This document shows, piece by piece, positions 24,296 through 30,442 of a stretch of DNA of 64,000 bases (its first letter is position 1; each line of letters begins with the position of its first letter). The notes under the pieces were generated by a model that saw nothing but the letters and a program-made list of their open reading frames with translations, did not search any database and was not told the DNA's origin. Where the stretch lies: the NCBI GenBank assembly GCA_016934825.1, contig JAFGSB010000158.1, positions 1-64,000 on the forward strand, written 5' to 3'. Both the position numbers and the translations under genes were made by a program. The stretch comes from Candidatus Zhuqueibacterota bacterium. GTDB taxonomy: Bacteria; Zhuqueibacterota; Zhuqueibacteria; Residuimicrobiales; Krinioviventaceae.

Positions 24296-24317
24296 TTTTT
24301 ACCTTTTGAGGTATCTT

Positions 24318-25664
24318 ATGAGTTTTTTTCCGAATACGAATGCTGATCAGCAGAAGATGCTCAACAAAATCGGTGTAAATTCTTTTACTGATTTAATTAA
24401 AAATATTCCGGCGGAATTGCTGTTCAAGGGCGAATTGAAACTACCAGCGCCGTTGTCAGAACTGGAAGTGATGCAGCACCTCACCAGTTTGGCTTCGAAA
24501 AATGAAAATTGTCAGGATAATATCTGCTTTCTTGGCGGCGGCGCTTATGATCATTTTATTCCTGCTGTTGTAAAACATATTATTTCCAGGTCGGAATTCT
24601 ATACCGCCTATACGCCTTACCAGCCGGAAGTCAGCCAGGGAACACTGCAGGCGATTTATGAATTCCAAACAATGATTTGCGAGCTTACCGGTATGGATGT
24701 TGCAAACGCATCCGTTTATGATGGCGGTTCTGCGCTGGCGGAAGCGGCTTTGCTGGCCTGCGGATATAATAATCGGAAACAGGTTCTCGTTTCTTCCACG
24801 GTCAATCCCAATTATACAAGTATTATTAAAACCTATTGTCACGGTCGGGGAATCGACATTAATATTTTGGACTGGGAAAACGGAATTACCGACCTGAACA
24901 AGCTGGAGGAACAAATTTCCGAAAAAACCGCCGCGGTTATCATCCAGCACCCTAATTTTTTCGGATGTCTGGAGGAAATGGAATCAATTTCACAGATAAC
25001 CCATAATAACGGAGCATTATTGATAACCTCAAATGATCCGATATCACTGGCGATTCTGCGGCCGCCGGGTGAATATAACGCAGATATCGTCACCGGCGAG
25101 GGTCAATCTTTTGGCAATCCGATAAGTTTTGGCGGTCCGTTCCTGGGGCTGTTTGCCGCCAGGAAAGAATTGATAAGATATATGCCCGGACGAATAGTTG
25201 GTCAAACCGAAGACAAAAATGGTAAAACCGGTTATGTGCTGACATTGCAGACAAGAGAACAGCATATTCGCAGAGAAAAAGCAACCTCCAATATTTGTAC
25301 AAATCAGGCTCTCAATGCACTGGCTGCGACTGTATATCTTTCATTAATGGGTAAATCCGGCTTACCTAAAGTTGCGCAGTTGTGTCTGCAAAAAAGCCAC
25401 TATTTGAGTGATAAAATCAAGGAAATTAATGGTTTAAATTTGAAATTTGACCGGCCTTTTTTCAAGGAATTTGTTGTAAAAGTCAGTTCAAACCGTTCGG
25501 CGGATGATTTAATAAAACAATTATTGAAGAAAAAGATATTTGCCGGCATCTCGCTGAATCCTTTATCGGATGAACTGAAAGACTGTTTTTTATGCGCCGT
25601 TACTGAAAAAAGAACAAAGAATGAACTGGATTATTTTTTGACCGCTCTGCGGGAACTTAAATGA
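24318..25664 (+). CDS. gcvPA: Glycine dehydrogenase (decarboxylating) subunit 1
   Basis: The non-PLP-lysine half of the two-subunit P-protein, working as a heterotetramer with GcvPB. FLGGGAYDHFIPAVV, TAYTPYQPEVSQGTLQ and QTREQHIRREKATSNICTN (19 residues) are characteristic. The start at 24318 has TGAGGT 7 bp upstream; an in-frame TTG at 24306 would place the ribosome site inside the gene. 448 residues is normal. It is the last gene of the run starting at gatA. Confidence 0.96.
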   Translation: MSFFPNTNADQQKMLNKIGVNSFTDLIKNIPAELLFKGELKLPAPLSELEVMQHLTSLASKNENCQDNICFLGGGAYDHFIPAVVKHIISRSEFYTAYTPYQPEVSQGTLQAIYEFQTMICELTGMDVANASVYDGGSALAEAALLACGYNNRKQVLVSSTVNPNYTSIIKTYCHGRGIDINILDWENGITDLNKLEEQISEKTAAVIIQHPNFFGCLEEMESISQITHNNGALLITSNDPISLAILRPPGEYNADIVTGEGQSFGNPISFGGPFLGLFAARKELIRYMPGRIVGQTEDKNGKTGYVLTLQTREQHIRREKATSNICTNQALNALAATVYLSLMGKSGLPKVAQLCLQKSHYLSDKIKEINGLNLKFDRPFFKEFVVKVSSNRSADDLIKQLLKKKIFAGISLNPLSDELKDCFLCAVTEKRTKNELDYFLTALRELK

Positions 25665-25736: not shown

Positions 25737-25765
25737 TTGACACTTTTTTTTAAATTTTGTAATTT
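25737..25765 (+). promoter_or_regulatory. Candidate promoter of the PorV-like gene and its leader
   Basis: TTGACA at 25737-25742, 17 bp spacer, TAATTT at 25760-25765. The -35 box is perfect. The -10 area reads TAATTTTG and also fits the TAnnTTTG box of Bacteroidota promoters. Transcription from here would start near 25772, giving a leader of about 257 nt. Confidence 0.55.
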
Positions 25766-25793
25766 TGATTTTATAAAATTAGATTGATATAAA

Positions 25794-25994
25794 GGAGTAA
25801 GCCTATAAAAGTTCGTTAAAGGTTTTATTAGTTTTGTGATTTAAATTAAATTGTAATTGTTACGGTTACGTAAATTAATGAAAAATTTTAGAACTTTTAA
25901 CGACCAAATAATTGGCTTACCTAATGATATGTCCGGATGTCTGAGGGTAAGTTCCTTATTTCAGGAGCATTGCTGAAACATTCGGATTTTTTTT
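25794..25994 (+). ncRNA. Structured 5' leader ending in a terminator-like hairpin (possible attenuator)
   Basis: Several complementary segments are nested in the leader. GTAAGCC (25797-25803) pairs with GGCTTAC (25914-25920). Inside it GTTCGTTAAAGG (25811-25822) pairs with CTTTTAACGACC (25894-25905) at 11 of 12 positions, and inside that TTACG/CGTAA forms a small hairpin near 25860. A second module follows: TCCGGATGT (25932-25940) pairs with ACATTCGGA (25978-25986), enclosing a hairpin CTGAGG(G)TAAG-TTC-CTTATTTCAG, and is followed directly by eight T (25987-25994). This is the layout of a riboswitch-like or attenuator leader, but I recognise no known class. Confidence 0.5.
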
Positions 25995-26028
25995 GTGACA
26001 AATATTTTTAACACAGGAGGCGATTGTA

Positions 26029-27126
26029 ATGAAAAAGCTGTTTGTAACGTTAATTTGTATATTTATGCTTTTGTTTTCTTTTTCACAGGTTTATGCCGTC
26101 AGTGAGGCGGCGGTACTGTTTTTAATGATTTCACCCGGCGCACGTGCATCGGGGATGGGTGAAGCTTTTGTCGCATTGGCGGATGACGCCACCGCGGTAT
26201 TTTGGAATCCGGCGGGTCTGGCTTTCCAGAAGGGGCAGGAACTTACCCTGATGCACGCAAACTGGCTGCCGCAGTTCGGGTCGGATTTGTTTTATGAGTT
26301 TGGCGCCTACCGGCAATCTTTTGAAGGAATAGGAACCGTTGGGTTAAATATTACTTATTTGAACCTGGGAAAACAGATCATTACCGGTGAAGACAGTCCC
26401 GAACCGTTGGGCGAATTTTCAAGTTATGAATTTGCGGTTTCCGGTACTTATGGAACAAAAATAAATGAAAATTGGGCCGTTGGTTTGGGATTACGGTACA
26501 TTCGCTCCGCTCTTTCCTCGGTAGGAGCAGGTGCGGAAAAAGGTGACGGTAAGGCTAATGCTTTTTCCTTTGATGTGTCCACATTATACAAGCTTCCATT
26601 TTTACCCCGGTTAAGTTTTGGTATGAATCTATCCAATATGGGCCCAAAAGTCACTTATATCGATGCCGCTCAGGCAGATCCGTTACCAACCAATTTGAAG
26701 GTTGGTCTTGCCTATAAAATCGTTGACGATCAATACAATAAACTGACCATTACCGGTGATATGAATCATCTTTTGGTTAAAAGAAATACCGACGGCACAT
26801 CCGATCCATGGTACAAGGCTATCATTACATCCCCATGGACAATTGTCGAAAAAGAAAAAGAAAATATTGGCAGTGATGATGAAAAAGAAATTGGTCAAAG
26901 TACAATATTTAACGGGATTTTAAGCGCGGGTGTTGAATACTGGTACAGTAATCTGATCGCTCTCCGCGCCGGTTATTACTGGGATGAACCCGGCAAAGTC
27001 AAGTTTGTTTCGTTTGGTGCCGGAATTCAATATAATTTGTACCGTTTTGATTTTGGGTATGTTTCCGCCGCTGAGGGACACCCGCTTGCGAATACCATGC
27101 GTTTTTCTTTAACGATGGGATTTTAA
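26029..27126 (+). CDS. Outer-membrane PorV/UPF0164-like protein
   Basis: 365 residues with a signal peptide (MKKLFVTLICIFMLLFSFSQVYA). It then has the UPF0164/PorV hallmark opening SPGARASGMGEAFVALADD followed by AVFWNPAGLA, and amphipathic beta strands to a C-terminal aromatic-ended strand (MRFSLTMGF). PorV is the outer-membrane shuttle that carries type IX cargo to the attachment complex, and family members pair with proteins bearing C-terminal sorting domains, as the next gene does. ACAGGAGGCGATTGTA gives a strong ribosome site. The gene stands behind the structured leader and is followed by a terminator, so it is likely transcribed on its own. Confidence 0.88.
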   Translation: MKKLFVTLICIFMLLFSFSQVYAVSEAAVLFLMISPGARASGMGEAFVALADDATAVFWNPAGLAFQKGQELTLMHANWLPQFGSDLFYEFGAYRQSFEGIGTVGLNITYLNLGKQIITGEDSPEPLGEFSSYEFAVSGTYGTKINENWAVGLGLRYIRSALSSVGAGAEKGDGKANAFSFDVSTLYKLPFLPRLSFGMNLSNMGPKVTYIDAAQADPLPTNLKVGLAYKIVDDQYNKLTITGDMNHLLVKRNTDGTSDPWYKAIITSPWTIVEKEKENIGSDDEKEIGQSTIFNGILSAGVEYWYSNLIALRAGYYWDEPGKVKFVSFGAGIQYNLYRFDFGYVSAAEGHPLANTMRFSLTMGF

Positions 27127-27138
27127 TTTCATGAAATT

Positions 27139-27185
27139 GAAAGGTAAAGGATGTCCAGATATGATTCCCTTTACCTTTCGTTTTT
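27139..27185 (+). terminator. Intrinsic terminator after the PorV-like gene
   Basis: GAAAGGTAAAGG (27139-27150) and CCTTTACCTTTC (27168-27179) form a perfect 12-bp stem with a 17-base loop, followed by GTTTTT. Because it covers the first codons of the long open frame starting at 27131, it argues that the next gene starts further downstream. Confidence 0.75.
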
Positions 27186-27262
27186 CGCGACGTGGTACCA
27201 GCAACCAGCATAATAGATATTTTTTAAAATTTTTATTAATCGGCTTATTTAGTGAAAATTGT

Positions 27263-30200
27263 ATGGAAAAGTATAAATTGATTTATGATGATAATAGAGT
27301 GTACATAAAAAAGTTTTCCCCGGTTTTATTCCTCCTCTCTCTTATTTTAATTGTATATCAGGCACATTCGGCAACACCCTTACATGTCTCCTTTGCAGGT
27401 TTTACAGATCCGTTAGGAGTCATTCAAAATTTTTCTTCAGAAAGTATGAGCGGTGCTTCTCAGCAGCCGGACACTTTACATTTTCTTGCCCTGCGCGCGG
27501 AATTTGTTAAGGATGAACTGGCGACCACAACCGGTAACGGACAATTCGACATGTCCGTTGAAAATAATTACCTGGTCGATAAACCACCACATAACCGGAC
27601 ATATTTTCAGCATCAGTTATTGGCCTTGAGTAATTATTTTAATAAAGTATCAAACAATAAATTGATTTTACAATCAATGGTCCTTCCCCTGGATGAAAAC
27701 AACGTATACCGGCTCAATGAGAACATGGTCTATTACAGCGGGCAGGAAAGTGAGGAGTTAAAAAAACAGCGCTGGGCCGAATTATTGCGGGATGTGGTCC
27801 TGCTGGCAAAAAAGCAGGATAAACCTGATTTTTCCCAATATGATGCGGTTATTATATTCCACGCCGGGGTGGGAAGCGATTTTGCCTTTGACTTTGATCC
27901 GACGCCCTACGATATTCAATCCGTCTTTTTGGATTTTGAATCATTAAAAGAAACTTTGGGAAAAGATGTTCCGGATTACCGAGGAATAGAAGCGGGTGAA
28001 AATATATTCATCAGGGAAGGGATAATCCTCCCCGAAATGCAGAACCAGGAAGAACAGATTCTCGGATTGCTCGGAACGATGACATTACTGGTGGGAAGCC
28101 AGCTTGGCATGCCGAGTCTGTTCGATACCGAAACCGGCCGGGCCGGTATCGGGCGCTGGGGTCTGATGGACCAGGGTTCTTATAATTTTCAGGGCCTGAT
28201 ACCCGCCGAACCCTGCGCCTGGACGAAAGTCTATATGGGATGGGAACAACCGGTTATCGTGACAGAAGGGAAAGACCTGAAAATCGGGACCTCACAAACC
28301 AAATCCGCTCCGCATATTTATAAAATTCCCATAACGGCAAAAGAGTATTTTTTAATTGAAAACCGGCAAAGGGACAGAAACCGCGACGGCGTTACGTTCG
28401 GTCGCAATATCAGCGGGGCGCGGGCACAATTTGATACACTCGGCAGTGTAGTGATGACCGAAAAAGATTTTGGCGTTATTACCAGTATTGATGAATATGA
28501 TTTCGGTTTGCCCGGATCGGGACTTTTGATCTGGCATATCGACGAAAATGTTATCGATGCCAATCTTGTATCCAATACGATCAATAACAATAGAGAACAT
28601 CGCGGTGTTGACCTGGTTGAGTGCGACGGCGCACAGGATATAGGTTATTATTACGGCCTGTTTGAACCCGGCTCCGGCACCGAATCGGGAAGCTTTTTCG
28701 ATCCGTACTGGGCGGGGAATATTTCGCATAAAATTGTGAATGAAGATGCGGATACCGTGGCCTTTTCTCCCCGGACCGTCCCCAAAAGTAATGCCAATGA
28801 CGGCTCTGTAACTCATATCAATATATACGATATCGGCGTGCGTGATTCCGTGATGACGTTTTCCGTCAAAATCGGGATGATGCAGCCCGGCTTTCCACAA
28901 TACGCCGGATTGGATTTTCATACCGCCAGTTTAAAGACTATACGTTACAATGGCGGTAATGAAACGGGACTTGTTGCGCTTGCCGGCAACGGCCAACTTT
29001 TCGGGTGGAACAGTAAAGGGGAGGCGCTTTTAGCGGAACAGGCTCCGGATAGCAATACCTCTAAAAAATTATTTGATAGTATCGAAGACGGGTTTATGTT
29101 ACCCCCGGCAACGGCTGATCTGACCGGCGACGGGACAGATGAGATCATTTTTGCCGGGCAGAGCGGAAAGCTGTATGTATTACAACTATCCGATAATAAT
29201 TCGGACGGTCAGGCCGATGTTCTGGATTCGACAGATATCGGCGAAATACCAACAGCCGGGCCCTTGCTATTCGCACAGGACAACTCGATTTTTATAATTG
29301 TCGGTACAGAGGCGGGACATGTAAAAATATTCGGTTATGATACAGCAGGCCTTCTCGATGTAAATCAGGTTGCTGTACAAAACGGTCAAATAACCGGACT
29401 TGCGGGCGGAACAGAGGAATTTCCCGGTATTTACGCCGTCACAAGTAACGGGTATTACGTTTACCTGAATTCAGCTTTCGGGATCGAAAACTCCGCCGCA
29501 CTTGAAGGATTTGATACCCCGGATGTGAAAATATTCGCCGCGCTGGCGGATTTCGACGGTTCGGCCGGCCCCGAACCCGTGTTTTATACGGAGGCGGGGA
29601 GATTATTCGGCAAAACATTGACCGATCAATATATTAGCGCTTCGGAGGATGATGTAACGGACATACCATACAGCGCTCCGGCAATCGGCAATGTGGATAG
29701 CGACGGATTGCCGGATATCATTTTCCATTTTAATGAATTTTTGTATGGATTTACATATAGGGGAATCAATACGCTCAATTTTCCGGTTAAAGTGTCCGAT
29801 ATGGGCGGTCTGGATTTGGAAAGACCGGCGCCTGTATTTTTTAATGATGATGGGGAAGGTGCTGTCATTATCAGCGCCACTCCGGACGGTCAACTGTTGG
29901 CTTTAAACGGCAAAGGACGCTTGCTGTCCGGATTTCCACTAACCGCCGGCGGGGGTATTTCCGTCACTCCGGCGCTGGCGGACCTGGACAATGACGGCGA
30001 TGTCGAATGCGCCGCGATCTCACAGGACGGTTACCTTTTTGTATGGGATTTGCCATATTCGGCGGATTTGACCGAAAGCTGGTCGCAATACGGTGCGGAT
30101 CAGCATAACAGTTTCCTGTTACCCGGTGATAACACTATAAAGATAACCGAAAAGGAACTGATGCCCGGTAAAAGCGTATTTTGTTACCCCAATCCTGCTG

Positions 30201-30442
30201 AAAACGGATTTACCCATATCCGGTATAAACTGACAAAAAATGTCAACCGGGTAGCGGTGCGAATTTATGATATTGCGGGAGACCTTGTTGAAGAGATAAA
30301 TGGGACCGGAACATCAATCGGTGAAAATGAAATAAACTGGGATATTTCAAATATTCAAAGCGGGGCATATATTGCCCGCGTTGAAGCGCAAAGTGGAGAT
30401 GAAACGGCTGTAGAATTTATAAAAATTGCGGTGGTTAAGTAA
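27263..30442 (+). CDS. Secreted M6-protease-like protein with degenerate active site, VCBS-like repeats and a type IX-like sorting domain
   Basis: About 1059 residues. After a hydrophobic export segment (FLLSLILIVYQAHSA) comes a region (about 50-400) resembling M6 immune-inhibitor-A proteases, but the zinc motif is lost. Where M6 has HEFGHxLGLPDLYD this reads LLVGSQLGMPSLFD (residues 275-288), followed by the conserved-like IGRWGLMDQGSYN. A beta-propeller-like stretch with FG-GAP/VCBS-type repeats follows (about 550-930, for example ADLDNDGDVECA). The last 80 residues look like a type A sorting domain: YPNPA near the start, IYDIAGDLV, then GAYIARV. ATG 27263 is preferred over 27131, which lies under the terminator; GTG 27299 would also give a clean signal peptide. 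The function is unknown; protease activity is unlikely. Confidence 0.8.
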   Translation: MEKYKLIYDDNRVYIKKFSPVLFLLSLILIVYQAHSATPLHVSFAGFTDPLGVIQNFSSESMSGASQQPDTLHFLALRAEFVKDELATTTGNGQFDMSVENNYLVDKPPHNRTYFQHQLLALSNYFNKVSNNKLILQSMVLPLDENNVYRLNENMVYYSGQESEELKKQRWAELLRDVVLLAKKQDKPDFSQYDAVIIFHAGVGSDFAFDFDPTPYDIQSVFLDFESLKETLGKDVPDYRGIEAGENIFIREGIILPEMQNQEEQILGLLGTMTLLVGSQLGMPSLFDTETGRAGIGRWGLMDQGSYNFQGLIPAEPCAWTKVYMGWEQPVIVTEGKDLKIGTSQTKSAPHIYKIPITAKEYFLIENRQRDRNRDGVTFGRNISGARAQFDTLGSVVMTEKDFGVITSIDEYDFGLPGSGLLIWHIDENVIDANLVSNTINNNREHRGVDLVECDGAQDIGYYYGLFEPGSGTESGSFFDPYWAGNISHKIVNEDADTVAFSPRTVPKSNANDGSVTHINIYDIGVRDSVMTFSVKIGMMQPGFPQYAGLDFHTASLKTIRYNGGNETGLVALAGNGQLFGWNSKGEALLAEQAPDSNTSKKLFDSIEDGFMLPPATADLTGDGTDEIIFAGQSGKLYVLQLSDNNSDGQADVLDSTDIGEIPTAGPLLFAQDNSIFIIVGTEAGHVKIFGYDTAGLLDVNQVAVQNGQITGLAGGTEEFPGIYAVTSNGYYVYLNSAFGIENSAALEGFDTPDVKIFAALADFDGSAGPEPVFYTEAGRLFGKTLTDQYISASEDDVTDIPYSAPAIGNVDSDGLPDIIFHFNEFLYGFTYRGINTLNFPVKVSDMGGLDLERPAPVFFNDDGEGAVIISATPDGQLLALNGKGRLLSGFPLTAGGGISVTPALADLDNDGDVECAAISQDGYLFVWDLPYSADLTESWSQYGADQHNSFLLPGDNTIKITEKELMPGKSVFCYPNPAENGFTHIRYKLTKNVNRVAVRIYDIAGDLVEEINGTGTSIGENEINWDISNIQSGAYIARVEAQSGDETAVEFIKIAVVK

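Follow-up and report, generated by a model that had tools for sequence, protein, structure and literature searches.

An undescribed cis-regulatory RNA family associated with type IX secretion genes in the KSB1 phylum

Whether type IX secretion is controlled by RNA, in addition to the control described at promoters for PorXY-SigP (PMC4800418), is a question raised by the interval upstream of one porV gene. This interval separates a glycine-cleavage P-protein gene (24306-25664) from porV (26029-27126) in the 64,000-nucleotide stretch of DNA that was analysed here (the window). The source is a candidate KSB1 bacterium; among named genomes, MAGs of candidate division KSB1 / Calditrichota are closest to it. 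A first-pass annotation had claimed that the interval carries a perfect TTGACA promoter, a nested long-range stem, and a further stem with a U run about 35 nt before the gene, all in the layout of an attenuator. The parts discussed below are the following.

25737..25767, + strand: promoter, with TTGACA at 25737-25742 and a second box, TAATTTTG, at 25760-25767
25794..25806, + strand: P1 5' strand with the conserved motif GGAGUAAGCCUAU (phylum-wide conservation; pairs with 25914-25922)
25811..25827, + strand: P2 5' strand, the conserved GUUCGUUAAAGG followed by UUUUA, paired at 25813-25827 (MFE fold, conservation, block alignment)
25828..25888, + strand: variable, poorly conserved apical part of the rod (MFE fold)
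25889..25903, + strand: P2 3' strand, co-varying with the 5' strand (MFE fold)
25914..25922, + strand: P1 3' strand, GGCUUACCU, shared between P1 (25794-25803) and the predicted antiterminator (25945-25953)
25931..25940, + strand: terminator 5' strand, GUCCGGAUGU, which is CCGAAUG in most relatives (MFE fold, conservation)
25945..25953, + strand: GGGUAAGUU within the terminator, a mimic of the P1 5' strand and predicted antiterminator partner of 25914-25922 (nascent-RNA prediction; co-variation z -5.3)
25978..25994, + strand: terminator 3' strand and U run (sequence, MFE fold; co-variation z -5.9)
26015..26020, + strand: AGGAGG ribosome-binding site of porV (sequence)
26029..27126, + strand: porV, encoding a PorV/PorQ family outer-membrane protein of type IX secretion (PF19572, 4e-31; NF033709, 6e-92; NF033710, 2.5e-68)
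27131..30442, + strand: gene for a T9SS-dependent, M6-like inactivated metalloprotease (NF052323, 1.3e-171; Por_Secre_tail)

The perfect TTGACA box is present as claimed. Because the second box is of the Bacteroidota type, TAnnTTTG, and not TATAAT, a generic sigma-70 scan does not report this promoter. Transcription probably starts near 25773, and the leader occupies approximately 25773-26028, of which the element itself makes up about 220 nt. The porV product scores 231 bits against the NCBIfam equivalog NF033710, slightly below the cut-off of 250, so the exact description is "PorV/PorQ family, most like PorV". The M6-like product, which carries a sorting tail, scores 573 bits against NF052323, just short of the cut-off of 600. 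Its gene (27131-30442) is probably in the same operon as porV. The distance between the two genes is 4 nt.

The RNA from 25770 to 25998 has a predicted minimum free energy of -59.3 kcal/mol, compared with -39.0 +/- 4.1 kcal/mol for dinucleotide shuffles (z = -4.92; 0/200 shuffles). The fold contains the nested long-range stem that had been proposed. Its closing stem, P1, pairs GUAAGCC (25797-25803) with GGCUUAC (25914-25920) and adds two G-C pairs across a bulged A, and the inner stem, P2, is a 15-bp helix (25813-25827 with 25889-25903) in the minimum-free-energy structure. The terminator (25931-25940 with 25978-25987) continues into a U run that reaches 25994, leaving 34 nt up to the porV start codon (ATG, 26029), in agreement with the first-pass annotation. 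A generic terminator scan missed this hairpin because it allows loops of only 3-8 nt. The leader occurs once in its own 5.4-Mb genome, as judged by DNA similarity search. The annotation had also failed to fit the leader to several known riboswitch classes and had proposed an Rfam scan. With Rfam 15, the window and 10 related loci gave no match at the gathering score, the T-box model included, and at loose thresholds the leader gave only meaningless weak matches.

Of 82 genomes from the KSB1 phylum, 77 were found to encode a PorV orthologue, and the same leader, with its parts in the same order, was extracted upstream of 68 porV genes. The shared plan begins with a promoter, followed by GGAG-NNN-GCCUAU, a gap of 3-8 nt, UUCGYUAAAGG, a variable apical part, and the complementary P2 and P1 strands. 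From there the order continues through CCGAAUG, an interior in which small hairpins occur, and CAUUCGG-U(n) to a ribosome-binding site followed by porV. Promoter-like sites with a TTG core were found in 60/65 leaders, at a median of 28 nt before GGAG. The terminator ends at a median of 40 nt before the porV start codon (no more than 60 nt in 59/65 leaders), which leaves little room for another promoter. The leader is almost certainly a real, conserved cis-regulatory RNA family that had gone unrecorded. The porV genes of families f11 (L065, L066 and L069) and f9 (L080 and L108) have no recognisable leader, so the element seems to have been lost or replaced in two families. Upstream of porV in L030 and L183 there is a variant in which the P2 hairpin runs directly into the U run and the separate CCGAAUG terminator is not seen. 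G082, a genome reached through L030, also has a match before porV.

Co-variation was assessed mainly by a strand-swap test, in which the 5' strand of each family is duplexed with the 3' region of its own or of another family. The sample comprised 66 leaders in 21 families, with permutation at the family level, the selection step included in the null, and a composition control in which the target is reversed. Native pairs exceed swapped pairs with z scores of -3.9 for P1, -7.0 for P2, -10.3 for P1 and P2 together, and -5.9 for the terminator; the corresponding reversed-target controls are 0.6, -2.5, -1.3 and 0.3, so that the composition control for P2 is not zero. In a gap-free block alignment, 74.7% of cells are paired, compared with 69.3 +/- 0.8 in shuffled alignments and at most 48.6% when the strands are slid by 1-3 columns. 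Double changes in this alignment number 62, versus 29 +/- 4. The block alignment was made from folded sequences and thus leans towards structure, so the swap test is the stronger evidence. These two methods were used because an alignment of full leaders with MAFFT and RNAalifold recovered the terminator alone, the variable loop being misaligned. P1, P2 and the terminator co-evolve across the 21 families.

The P1 3' strand has two potential partners. In the window, 25914-25922 can pair either with 25794-25803, as P1, or with 25945-25953, as an antiterminator. Comparable antiterminators would be formed by GGCUCACCUUGUGUG with GAUGCGAGGUGAGUU in L061 and by AGGCUUCUUGCUU with CGGCGAGAAGCUA in L063. 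The P1 3' strand falls within the last 30 nt ahead of the terminator, and when this segment was tested against the terminator interior, native pairs again exceeded swapped pairs (z -5.3; reversed control -0.9). In 49/66 leaders, 3 nt or more of the P1 3' strand take part in this alternative helix; in about a quarter of leaders, mostly in distant families, the helix does not use that strand. The AAAGGUUUGG segment and the 9 nt before CCGAA gave a strand-swap z of -3.5, with a reversed control of -2.8.

Predictions on nascent RNA indicate how the two pairings might be exchanged. The expected number of antiterminator pairs was counted with the first 13 nt, corresponding to the P1 5' strand, made unavailable, and it rises from 3.6 to 7.6 on average. 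The gain occurs in most members of the window's order and is strongest there (5.8 to 16.1 in the window, 3.3 to 20.6 in L058, and 1.7 to 16.2 in L052). In the full-length window RNA with the P1 5' strand captured, the terminator is still favoured at equilibrium, so the switch, if real, must be kinetic. It is quite probable that porV has an attenuator in which P1 and the antiterminator exclude each other, and the attenuator layout that had been read from the single sequence gains support from co-variation of all the helices, the predicted antiterminator included. Homologous leaders do co-vary, and none of the loci scanned matches a known Rfam class, which were the two points on which that annotation had said its proposal could fail. 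Two other pairings were tested by strand swap. Pairing between the P1 5' strand and the interior of the terminator was rejected (z -0.3), and so, as a general rule, was a local helix between the terminator 5' arm and the 15 nt that precede it (z 0.1). In f7 (L088, L089, L093, L117 and L118), GGGC of the P1 3' arm could pair with a GCCC that overlaps the terminator 5' arm, which would be a second possible antiterminator route, but local helices of this kind failed the strand-swap test when all leaders were considered.

The element is not confined to porV. A strict pattern (GGAGN{2,4}GCCTATN{3,8}TTCGYTA) has matches in 30/82 KSB1 genomes, nearly all of them porV leaders, and the reversed control pattern has one match. 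In two genomes (G046 and G047) the strict pattern precedes the gene for SprA (TIGR04189, 5e-208). Scored against shuffles with variable spacing, the 5' motif is found in 23/40 sprA upstream regions and in 2/40 of their reverse complements. Variable spacing was allowed because sprA copies often have a shorter gap; an earlier test with fixed spacing was weak (8/40), and the variable-spacing result is a second look at the same regions. Regions upstream of porU in KSB1, which served as the negative control, have the motif in 1/20 cases (mean z -0.19). The sprA copies are degenerate, seldom detected by models, and without a terminator. The sprA AUG lies between the P2 and P1 3' strands in several genomes of family f1 (L144, L151, L153 and L154 among them), and in L135, L142 and L173 the start codon is just past P1. 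With the start codon inside the fold or next to it, translational control is suggested, and the sprA element probably acts on translation. The f1 regions L144, L151, L153 and L154 have AAAGUCUUGAUGGCUC and no Shine-Dalgarno sequence next to the start codon. PorV docks across the lateral opening of SprA (PMC10994853), so the two main targets encode partners, and joint control of porV and sprA appears likely. The RNA family is undescribed, and it is tied to the type IX translocon.

Further targets are rare. Searches of the genomes with model R1 gave few additional sites, and model R2 was no improvement over R1. In G051 (L136), G052 (L179) and G053 (L178), a leader with terminator lies ahead of a conserved operon that encodes an Ig-like-domain lipoprotein, a beta-propeller protein with a FlgD-like tail, and two PorV-family paralogues. 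In G018 (L180:4001-4200), the leader and terminator precede a nucleotide-sugar dehydrogenase and polysaccharide-export operon; no other clear target beyond the type IX genes was found. Among 208 non-KSB1 genomes the strict pattern matched once, in G242, a member of another phylum in which leader and terminator lie ahead of porU-porV and an M6-like protease gene; no relatives of G242 in its phylum scored. The strict-pattern match in G077 (L137) is inside a coding gene and was taken as chance, and the model matches in L181 and L182 lack the leader architecture and were set aside as false positives.

Taken as a whole, the leader seems on balance to be best explained as a cis-acting RNA switch that controls porV by transcription attenuation. 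When P1 is closed, its 3' strand would be occupied, the terminator would form, and porV would be off. Perhaps a trans-acting factor holds the P1 5' strand open, in which case the P1 3' strand could pair inside the nascent terminator, the antiterminator would form, and RNA polymerase would read through into porV and the M6-like gene. Because P1 and P2 are made first and are stable, the default state is probably off and the effector is probably an activator. The likeliest effector would be a protein (or RNA) that reads the conserved 5' strand, GGAG..GCCUAU..UUCGYUAAAGG, and the main alternative would be a small-molecule ligand. Information content is higher on the 5' than on the 3' strand (1.27 versus 0.70 bits per position in P2, and 0.96 versus 0.37 in P1), although the use of the 5' motif as anchor exaggerates the difference. 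In a simple rod, conservation that lies mainly on the 5' strand points to a protein or RNA reader more than to a two-strand pocket. Such a pattern is no less compatible with a trans-acting protein or RNA than with a ligand, and we put the chance that the effector is such a macromolecule at a little under even. With the related sprA element working probably on translation, the net effect may be joint control of carrier (PorV) and pore (SprA). A more tentative proposal is that the RNA is a new class of sensor, spread across KSB1 and scarce elsewhere, which responds to the condition of the cell envelope or of the secretion system and tunes the two docking partners together, PorV through transcription attenuation and SprA through occlusion of its start codon.

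Several known systems resemble the leader, and some suggest other readings of it. Terminating riboswitches likewise have a P1-closed 5' domain, a P1 3' strand that is shared with an antiterminator, and an intrinsic terminator just before the gene. The use of two expression platforms, transcriptional at porV and translational at a second gene, and the rare use at other cell-surface operons are also typical of riboswitches. The leader might therefore be a new metabolite- or ion-sensing riboswitch, whose ligand would stabilise the P1 aptamer and terminate porV transcription as feedback, with a translational version at sprA. However, it matches no Rfam class and is a simple rod without a multi-helix junction, its conservation is biased to the 5' strand while the 3' strand follows by pairing and not by identity, its occurrence is nearly limited to one phylum and two main genes, and its targets share no metabolic pathway, so a riboswitch is rather unlikely. 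Attenuators controlled by proteins and autoregulated leaders, such as trp-type RNA-binding attenuation and ribosomal-protein leaders, share the mutually exclusive antiterminator and terminator and a conserved strand that can be held; in their case the difference is that the porV and sprA products are outer-membrane proteins, which makes direct feedback by the product unlikely. RfaH/ops, LoaP and UpxY also involve leader elements at cell-surface genes and read-through of terminators. The fold could accordingly be a loading site that recruits a NusG-type (RfaH/LoaP/UpxY-like) or other elongation-complex factor, which would take RNA polymerase past the terminator, given that the targets are long cell-surface genes or operons, including the polysaccharide operon in G018, and that the 5' strand is conserved like an element read during transcription. 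This is improbable, because a co-varying antiterminator helix would then be superfluous, the gap between the two conserved halves of the co-varying rod varies, and the sprA copies have no terminator.

Two further readings fare worse. With its own promoter, a strong terminator, a length of about 220 nt and a stable rod-like fold, the leader resembles a small RNA gene that is upstream of porV by conserved synteny. Yet its terminator is so near porV (34 nt away in the window) that a second promoter has no room, the motif recurs ahead of other operons and of sprA, where no terminator accompanies it, and the co-varying antiterminator would have no role in a free RNA, which together make this very unlikely. 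The resemblance of GGAG to a Shine-Dalgarno sequence raises the idea that a ribosome on a short leader ORF controls the terminator, but a start codon at a usable distance past GGAG is found in 1/66 leaders, and an internal Shine-Dalgarno sequence with AUG or GUG also in 1/66, so leader-peptide attenuation is scarcely credible. The cis-acting switch on porV remains the preferred reading.

In the literature found, the PorXY-SigP control of type IX genes in Bacteroidota consists of a two-component system and a sigma factor acting at promoters, with no RNA element reported (PMC4800418). The leader is closer in its type of evidence to the orphan candidate RNAs of comparative genomics, which are also conserved structured RNAs (PMC2864571), but no Rfam-deposited family matches it, and PorV is not mentioned in that paper. 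Our search, which reached only a minority of subscription papers, found no riboswitch of type IX genes by title or abstract and no mention of type IX secretion together with KSB1. Within the literature searched and Rfam, a phylum-wide RNA switch ahead of carrier and pore would be the first known case of type IX secretion being controlled at the RNA level, and one regulatory RNA with two outputs on partner proteins is suggested. The leader of about 220 nt is a defined target for ligand or protein pull-down, and KSB1, an uncultured lineage, gains an RNA family of its own. In G242 (L184), as in the window, porV is trailed by an M6-like gene, so porV-M6 looks like an old operon.
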